Below, in pieces: positions 2,331 to 4,647 of a DNA stretch of 64,000 nt; position 1 is the first letter of the stretch; each line of letters starts with the position of its first letter. Made by a program: the position numbers and the translations under genes. Under the pieces are notes generated by a model. That model did no database searches, was not told the origin of the DNA, and saw only the letters and a list, made by a program, of their open reading frames with translations. Source of the DNA: Natronolimnobius baerhuensis (lineage in GTDB: Archaea > Halobacteriota > Halobacteria > Halobacteriales > Natrialbaceae); assembly GCF_002177135.1 (NCBI RefSeq), contig NZ_MWPH01000001.1:868001-932000 (forward strand), written 5' to 3'.

Positions 2331-3731
2331 TCACCGGTAGGCGTTCACGATGTCCGTCGGGGTGAATAGTGAGATGTCGTCTCGTTCTGCAGCCGTCTGT
2401 TGCAACCCCTCAGAAAAGCCGGATCGACAGAAACAGCAGTACTGCGGTGTCGACTCGCCACCGTTCGGTGGCGTCCACCGAATCTGTGCGGTGCTGCGCT
2501 CGAGGTCGGCCAGATCACCCTCATCCATTGGTCGGGTTGTGTACTTACACTCGCCAGCGACGAGCGTGCCATCGCCGCCGAGTCCGACGACATCGAGTTC
2601 GTGGTGATCGTGCCACCAGTAGCCGATGCCGTGATACGTTTTTGGGACGAGTTCCGGGAGCGCTTGCTGGCACACTCGTTCGAACATGGTGCCCATATAG
2701 GACGAGAACGTCGGCTCGACGAGTTGCTCGTAGGCGTCATCGCCAAGTTGGGCGAGTTTTGCTTGCTGCCCGTAGACGTACTGGAACCAGAACTGAAACA
2801 GCGGTTCCCGGAGTCGATAACGACTCTTTCTGGTCGTTTGCGGATTCGCCGTAACCGGGGTATCTCGTTCAATGAGTCGCAGTCGGCGGAGCTTCGAGAG
2901 GTACGAACCCACCGAATTCGATTCGATTCCAGCGAACCCGGCAATTTCACTCACCTCGCGTTTGCCCGTGGCGATGGCCCGAAGAATCGTATAGTAGGTT
3001 TGTGGGTCCCGAATGCCAAACTCCGTCCGAAGGAGGAACTCGGGTTCGTTGTGCAAGACGCCGTGTTCCGACAGAATATGTGTCTGGATATTTTCCGCGA
3101 GGGTACTCGACTGCGTCAGCGCCTGTAGATAGTACGGCGTTCCACCGAAGACGCCCCACGACCGGATGATCGAGTCAGGTTCCGAGTTCGGATAGAACCG
3201 CCGCGCGTCCCCAAACTCGAGCGGTGGTAAGTCAATTGCCCCGGTTCGTCGACCGTACAGCGGACTGCCGCCGCCCAGCACTTTCTCTTCCATGATGCTG
3301 ATCGACGAGCCGACGAGAACGAGCGTCATCGACGTCTCCTCGAGGTGCATGTCCCAGACTCGCTGGAGTTTCGACGGCAGGGACTCATCCGATTCGATTA
3401 GGTATGGAAACTCATCGAGGATAACGATAGTATCCTGCTGGCCGAGCGTTCGCAACACTGTCTCCCAGTCGCGTTTGAGATCCTCGATGAGGGGAACCGT
3501 CTCGCTGGCCGTTTCGACGAAGTCCTCGAGTTGGACGGCTGCAGTCTCTTCGGTTGCCTGCCAGTATACGGCATCGTCGCGCTCACCGATTGCCTCACGA
3601 ACGAGTGCGCTTTTGCCGAGTCGGCGACGCCCGTACACAACGAGCAAATCGGCCGTCTCCCGGTCAAACCGCGACCGCAACAGTTCGAGTTCGTCCTCGC
3701 GATTGACGAACTGCGGATGGGACATACACAC
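2331..3731 (-). CDS. Archaeal AAA ATPase with wHTH and DUF234-type nuclease-like C-terminus
   Basis: 466 aa; ATGs at 3731 and 3725 are both usable. The N-terminal P-loop NTPase has GRRRLGKS at 34-41 (Walker A) and VILDEFPYL (Walker B). A winged-helix region follows (about 255-320), then a C-terminal domain with ELDVVGLGGDGTLVAGECKY, which matches the spacing of a PD-(D/E)xK nuclease core (D...ExK). This order is typical of the archaeal ATPase family with a DUF234 C-terminus, whose role is poorly known; links to mobile elements or DNA processing are suspected. The gene stands alone, and its promoter carries two tandem palindromes, implying its own regulation. Confidence 0.85.
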   Translation of the reverse strand: MCMSHPQFVNREDELELLRSRFDRETADLLVVYGRRRLGKSALVREAIGERDDAVYWQATEETAAVQLEDFVETASETVPLIEDLKRDWETVLRTLGQQDTIVILDEFPYLIESDESLPSKLQRVWDMHLEETSMTLVLVGSSISIMEEKVLGGGSPLYGRRTGAIDLPPLEFGDARRFYPNSEPDSIIRSWGVFGGTPYYLQALTQSSTLAENIQTHILSEHGVLHNEPEFLLRTEFGIRDPQTYYTILRAIATGKREVSEIAGFAGIESNSVGSYLSKLRRLRLIERDTPVTANPQTTRKSRYRLREPLFQFWFQYVYGQQAKLAQLGDDAYEQLVEPTFSSYMGTMFERVCQQALPELVPKTYHGIGYWWHDHHELDVVGLGGDGTLVAGECKYTTRPMDEGDLADLERSTAQIRWTPPNGGESTPQYCCFCRSGFSEGLQQTAAERDDISLFTPTDIVNAYR

Positions 3732-3824: not shown

Positions 3825-4142
3825 TTAGCCCACCTCCATCACCGGCGGCGCGTCCGGTTCGACCGCTTCCACTCGGTCGACGCACTTCACGCCGAACCCG
3901 TCCTCGAGGGCACGCTCGCAGCAGGCGACGGTTTCGGCGTCGGTGAAGGCCACTCGAGCGTCGAGTGCGACGGTCGTATCGTTGAGACTTGGTGAGACCT
4001 GCTTGATGTCGACATCGGCGACGTGGTCGACGGTGTCGACGCGTTCGACGACGACCAGTGCGCCGTCGGCGAGGCTCCCCGTGGCGCTGAGTGGAACGCG
4101 AACGGTAAGCGATACCTCGACCTGCAGTGTGAGTGCGGTCAT
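3825..4142 (-). CDS. Small hypothetical protein
   Basis: 105 aa, acidic, no membrane segment or signal peptide. It alternates short hydrophobic beta-like stretches with Asp-rich turns and has a Cys-Cys pair plus a further Cys (ACCERALEDGFGVKCVDRV) near the C-terminus. I do not recognise the family. Composition and codon use fit the neighbourhood, so it is probably real. It is transcribed away from the structured intergenic region 4150-4498, which would be its 5' side; that region could be a long leader for this gene or an independent RNA. Its stop is 94 bp from the ATPase gene start. Confidence 0.6.
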   Translation of the reverse strand: MTALTLQVEVSLTVRVPLSATGSLADGALVVVERVDTVDHVADVDIKQVSPSLNDTTVALDARVAFTDAETVACCERALEDGFGVKCVDRVEAVEPDAPPVMEVG

Positions 4143-4149
4143 AGGTCCC

Positions 4150-4498
4150 CGTCGAGAGTCGAACTCGACGCTCGAGCGCTGGTCGGCGCTCGCGTGGTGG
4201 CCAGTACACTACGGGGACGGCATCCCCGCTGGCCGGACGTAGAACACGCAGACGGGACCACCCGTCAGCGGTGAGAGACTCCGAAAAACGGCGTCATCGG
4301 TTCCGTCCGGCCAGCGACGATTATACGGCGCGGACGGACGCGATTGCGACTCCAATCGAACTCGAGTGGAGTGCGTGACCGAGATCCCGTCCACGGCCGA
4401 TGGCCTCGAGCCAGGTGCCGAGGCCATAACGGGTGCAACGCCCACTGCTCGCCGCGAGTGCAAGCAGGCCATTGTGGCGAGTGAGCGTTTTCGGGATC
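4150..4498. ncRNA. Candidate structured RNA region (series of perfect hairpins)
   Basis: No convincing long reading frame, but a dense series of perfect inverted repeats. They are: 7-bp stem 4150-4156/4164-4170; 7-bp stem 4173-4179/4186-4192; 6-bp stem 4199-4204/4229-4234 enclosing GGGGA/TCCCC; 13-bp stem CGCTGGCCGGACG at 4227-4239 with its exact complement at 4304-4316, enclosing GACGGG-ACCA-CCCGTC; 9-bp stem ATGGCCTCG/CGAGGCCAT near 4400-4428; and GATCCCG at 4383-4389 with CGGGATC at 4492-4498. I could not match it to RNase P RNA, SRP RNA or a tRNA. An AT-rich promoter-like stretch lies at 4500-4560. Strand is undetermined; minus would make it a leader of the gene at 3825-4142. Confidence 0.45.
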
Positions 4499-4500
4499 AT
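4321..4500 (-). CDS. Possible 59-aa small protein (doubtful)
   Basis: An ATG-to-TAA frame of 59 codons starts MIPKTLTRHNGLLALAAS and ends IGVAIASVRAV. It follows the AT-rich stretch at 4500-4560 that could serve as a promoter. The product is basic and Arg/His-rich, unlike typical haloarchaeal proteins, and the frame overlaps the inverted repeats described for 4150-4498. It is either a genuine small protein or a by-product of a structured RNA; I favour the latter. Confidence 0.2.
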   Translation of the reverse strand: MIPKTLTRHNGLLALAASSGRCTRYGLGTWLEAIGRGRDLGHALHSSSIGVAIASVRAV

Positions 4501-4647
4501 CGATCAGCGAACCTGTTTCAACGATTATGCGCAATTGACATAATTGTTGTTGTAGTGTGTGCACACCCACCATGGTATCGCCCATGAGGCCAACGTTCAA
4601 GGGACCGCGTTCGAACTGTATGTAGCATGAACGACGCGGCCCCGCTC

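Follow-up and report, generated by a model that had tools for sequence, protein, structure and literature searches.

In Haloferax volcanii, a transfer RNA (tRNA)-like structure known as the t-element lies directly before the 5S ribosomal RNA (rRNA), and cutting by tRNase Z at this place makes the 5S 5' end (Hoelzle et al. 2008, RNA 14:928; reported in PMC4326828, PMC3296008, and PMC7714728). Both RNase P and tRNase Z act on t-elements, which have also served in vivo to free CRISPR RNAs (PMC4326828, PMC4946936, PMC3296008, and PMC7714728). We analyzed positions 4150 to 4498 of a window of 64,000 nucleotides (nt) from Natronolimnobius baerhuensis (contig NZ_MWPH01000001.1, positions 868,001 to 932,000). 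This stretch is the conserved leader of a gene encoding 105 amino acids (aa), here called open reading frame 2 (ORF2), and not a free-standing noncoding RNA (ncRNA). The leader runs on the minus strand, in the order promoter, small ORF (ORF 1), hairpin around the ORF 1 stop codon, tRNA-like structure, and ORF2 (Table 1). The tRNA-like structure mimics a tRNA, is conserved and covaries, and is joined directly to the start codon of a gene family of haloarchaea, with the leader ORF in front of it.

The original prediction had found no tRNA features in the stretch. On the minus strand, ARAGORN called positions 4218-4144 as an odd tRNA whose anticodon has four bases, and homologue alignments confirmed a degenerate tRNA there; the leader was followed up because of this call. 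The motif GTTCGA was present 22 to 25 nt before the ORF2 ATG in 27 of the first 29 homologues. Eighty further upstream regions were fetched with the presence of ORF2 as the sole criterion; the element is present in 61 of these, or in 61 of the 64 that lie outside one genus. Overall, a T-arm with an invariant GTTCGA and C61 was identified upstream of ORF2 in 88 genomes from nine families. After the T-arm come the 3' strand of the acceptor stem and a single discriminator base; next is position 74, which is a T in 80 of 83 loci, and then the start codon. The distance from G53, the G of the T-loop, to the ATG was 22 to 23 nt in 77 of the 88 genomes.

Compensatory changes in homologous upstream regions, the check that the original prediction had proposed, were strong in the acceptor and T stems. 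Acceptor stem variants include GTCCCCG/CGGGGAC, GCCTCCG/CGGAGGC, GCCGACG/CGTCGGC, GCGTCCG/CGGACGC, and GTTCCCG/CGGGAAC. Among 59 sequences, 93.4% of cells in the two stems were paired, compared with 70.6% after shuffling and 40-50% when the strands were slid, and 11 of the 12 pairs showed changes on both sides. The covariation score was 0.574 against 0.160 ± 0.014 in shuffles (0 of 500 reached 0.574) and at most 0.134 in slid alignments; the acceptor score is somewhat inflated because the 5' acceptor strand was placed by best pairing, a bias from which the T stem is free. All seven acceptor pairs were Watson-Crick in 33% of sequences with their own partners and in 6.5% with swapped ones. The D and anticodon arms are free to vary and are degenerate or absent; in the Halobacterium group they have shrunk to an insert of 15-20 nt. 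The conserved parts are the acceptor stem and T-arm only, with the remaining arms reduced to an insert of 10-20 nt. An acceptor stem and T-arm joined by a 10-20 nt insert form a minimal tRNase Z substrate.

A DNA pattern combining the T-arm, acceptor stem, and ATG was scanned over all GTDB species genomes and gave 25 matches. One was a true bacterial tRNA, and the other 24 were haloarchaeal, every one of them before ORF2, including a locus of Halobacterium salinarum DSM 3754 (L181). In the N. baerhuensis genome itself, a covariance model gave two hits, the 4145-4218 site with 61 bits and a second site with 31 bits. The latter (G000:C1:748524-748591, plus strand) is outside the window and precedes a gene for a DUF5658 membrane protein. 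Relatives of this gene carry the same T-arm before their ATG, with the element ending 1-3 nt upstream, in all 20 Natrialbaceae loci fetched (L212-L231), and these loci have no obvious leader ORF. DUF5658 is an independent gene family, unrelated to ORF2, with the same arrangement. A stricter pattern applied to 45 genomes of the order Halobacteriales gave 15 matches, of which 11 belonged to the ORF2 or DUF5658 families and four had no T stem when inspected by eye.

Haloarchaeal 5S rRNA loci served as a control. In nine of nine loci that have a t-element, GTTCGA or GTTCAA lies at the spacing from the 5S 5' end that the ORF2 element shows from its product, and a T stands just before 5S. The modeled 5S start follows the T-loop G by 22 nt, or by 21 nt in one locus; the model alignment displaces L254 by one position. 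Some 5S copies, namely L261 in N. baerhuensis and L253 in its sister species G001, have no t-element upstream, and another copy, L254, has one. The two features by which a t-element is recognized, an acceptor stem with a canonical T-loop and a junction of positions 73 and 74 at the 5' end of the product, are both found before ORF2. Because the geometry of the ORF2 element equals that of the 5S t-element, a tRNase Z mechanism is suggested, and we consider it likely that tRNase Z cuts the element and so converts a long transcript to leaderless ORF2 mRNA. Transcription would begin at the conserved promoter near 4540 on the minus strand and yield an RNA in which a short translated leader ORF and the hairpin over its stop codon precede the t-element. 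tRNase Z would recognize the acceptor stem and T-arm as in a pre-tRNA and cut after the discriminator base (4144/4143). The cut would remove about 370 nt and leave an ORF2 mRNA that starts 5'-U-AUG, a leaderless form, which is the form that haloarchaea translate best. RNase P may make a second cut on the element's 5' side, and the leader ORF probably tunes the process through ribosome occupancy. Leaderless mRNAs are defined by leaders of 0-5 nt and account for 72% of H. volcanii transcripts (PMC4983044). The cut predicted after position 73 would leave a leader of 1-4 nt, the shortest being the U of U-AUG, within that definition.

ORF 1 was missed by the original prediction, which had seen no convincing protein gene in the stretch. 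In 17 of 18 loci of family f1 it is a single open frame running from a conserved ATG to a conserved stop. It was also picked in 76 of 88 loci from seven families, usually starting with MT or MI and with a C-terminal -AA in 48, although the picker favored such ends and the f1 count is therefore the cleaner one. The sequence between the ends is weakly constrained, with ratios of nonsynonymous to synonymous changes (pN/pS) from 0.35 to 1.65. Its guanine-plus-cytosine (GC) contents at the three codon positions (0.63/0.66/0.76) are weakly coding compared with those of ORF2 (0.81/0.47/0.83). An ordinary conserved protein was considered and rejected: the ends and frame are kept, but the pN/pS and codon-position GC values are weak. 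A leader ORF is likelier for these two reasons, and ORF 1 is probably a translated leader ORF, as judged from its sequence. The hairpin enclosing its stop codon was seen in nearly all f1 loci and, with a different sequence, in other families too. A median of 17.5 pairs enclose the stop, against 11 in shuffles, and locus L049 shows a paired change (CCAUCC/GGAUGG). Translation of ORF 1, with its stop inside the hairpin, might gate folding and cutting of the t-element and hence release of the leaderless ORF2 mRNA, which would make the leader a new class of archaeal riboregulator; we regard this extension as doubtful and offer it tentatively.

Several observations weigh against cleavage of the element by tRNase Z, in addition to the inflation of the covariation score. 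Acceptor pair 1-72 is often unpaired (23 of 59 sequences). The T-arm has been lost from the 16 genomes of genus g45 in family f17 (loci L090, L091, L093, L094, L096, L099, L101-L103, L108-L112, L119, and L121), which retain ORF2 and ORF 1, so that the element is either dispensable in this genus or replaced by another route. The small ORF there ends in TTPTA before the stop codon, and an outer stem GCTCCCG/CGGGAGC is often retained 8-17 nt before the ATG. Loci L150 and L168 have no element, and in L160 it is farther from the ATG. Both the 5' end at the ORF2 start and the cleavage are predicted from sequence and structure. The last 120 bases upstream of the ORF2 copy in L150 (genome G122) contain a fuller tRNA-like sequence (TAGCTCAAGCGGCAGAGC...AATCGACTCC) that is not of the GTTCGA form.

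Other roles for the tRNA-like structure were weighed against processing by tRNase Z. Left uncut, it could be an internal ribosome entry device that positions ribosomes at the neighboring AUG, as a tRNA mimic does in viral intergenic internal ribosome entry sites (IRES). Its spacing to the AUG that it abuts is fixed, and there is no Shine-Dalgarno sequence; however, an IRES mimic would need the anticodon arm, which here is degenerate or absent, the acceptor stem and T-arm alone being conserved, and ribosome entry would leave the fixed U74 and the 5S t-element match unexplained. We consider it improbable. Escherichia coli threonyl-tRNA synthetase represses translation of its own mRNA via a tRNA mimic, and the element could likewise be an operator at which the ORF2 protein or a tRNA-binding protein represses translation. 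ORF2 is the element's constant partner, and its predicted ferredoxin-like fold weakly resembles several RNA-associated small proteins. The unrelated DUF5658 membrane family has the same element, however, and neither the AUG spacing nor U74 is required by an operator, which we also think improbable.

Nor does the element look like a tRNA gene or an independent RNA. ARAGORN calls tRNAs at this place in some genomes (Asp, Gly, Arg, and '???'), as would be expected for a decayed or unusual tRNA gene or for a piece of tRNA that an integrating element left behind, but the predicted anticodon differs in every species and its loop is often 2-4 nt. The same gene follows at the same distance in nine families, and the stems covary and do not decay; we give this origin almost no weight. 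A functional tRNA gene was rejected since the anticodon loop is 2-8 nt or absent, not the 7 nt of a functional tRNA, and the anticodon changes from species to species. Transfer-messenger RNA (tmRNA) was rejected as well: the element is a local structure of 50-80 nt after an ORF and does not form both RNA ends around a tag ORF, and the alanine identity pair G3:U70 never occurs, pair 3-70 being C-G, U-A, or G-C in 58 of 59 sequences. ARAGORN calls on the elements include Asp (L033 and L036), Gly (L035), Arg (L059), and Cys (L160), and similar false tRNA genes may be annotated in public genomes. The original prediction had offered two options, a structured leader of the gene at 3825-4142 or an independent ncRNA, and the former stands: the minus-strand structure is kept upstream of ORF2 homologues across the order. 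An ncRNA with the tRNA-like domain as its 3' end and ORF2 as a mere neighbor would fit the stable 370-nt fold, and a 5' piece could persist after cutting. Its upstream part, however, changes rapidly and contains a reading frame that is conserved, and the order-wide constant is the element with the ORF2 start codon only, the two always meeting at a fixed distance. Rfam searches at the gathering score matched no family, RNase P RNA and signal recognition particle (SRP) RNA included. We find this second option highly improbable.

The stems that first drew attention to the stretch are exact, with 13 base pairs (bp) between 4227-4239 and 4304-4316 and 7 bp between 4383-4389 and 4492-4498. Apart from the 13-bp stem, the window has no inverted repeat of 13 bp or more within 110 nt. 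There are 16 perfect 7-bp inverted repeats in 4150-4498, compared with a mean of 5.2 per 349-nt tile, and four of 183 tiles reach 16. The fold of the stretch (-174.7 kcal/mol) is below that of each of 91 tiles sampled from the window, and dinucleotide shuffles gave z scores of -5.9 (plus strand) and -6.1 (minus strand). A plus-strand structure is equally stable by energy but was rejected, since everything that is conserved lies on the minus strand, with ORF2. The 7-bp pair had been proposed as a closing pair and is probably due to chance, since the sister species has GATCTCG instead. A 386-nt query found a full-length relative in that species alone (88%), along with short matches in several genera just upstream of ORF2 homologues. 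In other genera, the partners of the 13-bp stem pair no better than swapped ones (8.9 versus 8.2), so its conservation is unproven. A trp-like attenuator, in which 4395-4387 would pair with 4337-4329, 4337-4331 with 4309-4303, and finally the 13-bp stem would form, was rejected because its 13-bp partner is at the swapped level in other genera; a competing-helix arrangement in this genus is suggestive and is not claimed.

Table 1. Features of the ORF2 leader, in window coordinates
Feature	Position	Strand	Evidence or remark
Promoter, B recognition element (BRE)/TATA-like, AACAATTATGTC	4537-4548	-	GAAACnATTATGT-type box at matching place in 18/18 Natrialbaceae loci examined
Expected transcription start	4512-4520	-	About 24-28 nt past the TATA box; predicted from archaeal promoter geometry
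ORF 1, 59 codons, MIPKTL...SVRAV then stop	4321-4500	-	Conserved ATG and stop
Hairpin enclosing ORF 1 stop codon	4303-4337	-	CCGUCCG 4337-4331 with CGGACGG 4309-4303
13-bp stem	4316-4304 with 4239-4227	-	Exact; 12/13 bp kept in G001
tRNA-like structure (t-element)	4145-4218	-	ARAGORN, homologues, covariation; ends 2 nt before ORF2 ATG
Acceptor stem	4218-4212 with 4151-4145	-	
T-arm, GUCGAGUUCGACUCUCGAC	4169-4151	-	G53 at 4164
Discriminator C73; U74	4144; 4143	-	Predicted tRNase Z cut between them, giving 5'-U-AUG
ORF2, 105 aa	3825-4142	-	Predicted ferredoxin-like fold

ORF2 was present in 158 of 293 genomes and 54 of 87 genera of the order and, in a phylum-wide sample, was confined to it. It matched no family in Pfam or NCBIfam. 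An AlphaFold model (predicted local distance difference test score [pLDDT], 79.8) has a b-a-b-b-a-b topology, predicted to be a ferredoxin-like fold, and the nearest solved structures found by Foldseek were weakly similar (best E value, 0.009; template modeling [TM] score, 0.43). No TATA box or Shine-Dalgarno sequence fits within the structured ~70 nt before its ATG, and the ORF2 paralogues without the element in L061 and L168 have a Shine-Dalgarno-like GAGGTGA before the ATG. An ATPase_2/DUF234 gene (2331-3731, minus strand) sits between ORF2 and an XPB-like helicase gene (369-2327), and in several relatives ORF2 directly adjoins the end of the helicase gene.

Most haloarchaeal mRNAs are leaderless, which is thought to be set by the position of transcription start. 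In two unrelated gene families, across whole clades, a tRNA mimic is fused to the start codon and would yield a leaderless mRNA by cutting. If so, the role of tRNase Z in archaea would widen from tRNA and 5S rRNA to mRNA, tRNA punctuation of the mitochondrial type would enter free-living cells, and a conserved leader ORF would be linked to mRNA processing. The element also accounts for spurious tRNA calls in these genomes.

By its structure and position, the ORF2 element appears to work like a t-element. As at haloarchaeal 5S loci, an acceptor and T-arm mimic stands directly before a functional RNA, with an equal distance from G53 to the product and T74. Unlike at those loci, the product begins with a protein start codon, the middle arms are more reduced, a leader ORF precedes the element, and cleavage is predicted. 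In mitochondrial tRNA punctuation, RNase P and tRNase Z find their cut sites at tRNA-shaped structures that separate coding parts, whereas the ORF2 element frees no functional tRNA and its tRNA shape seems to be a signal only. The tRNA-like domain of MALAT1/mascRNA is likewise a signal for processing by RNase P and tRNase Z; there it makes the 3' end of a long RNA, whereas the ORF2 element would make the 5' end of an mRNA.
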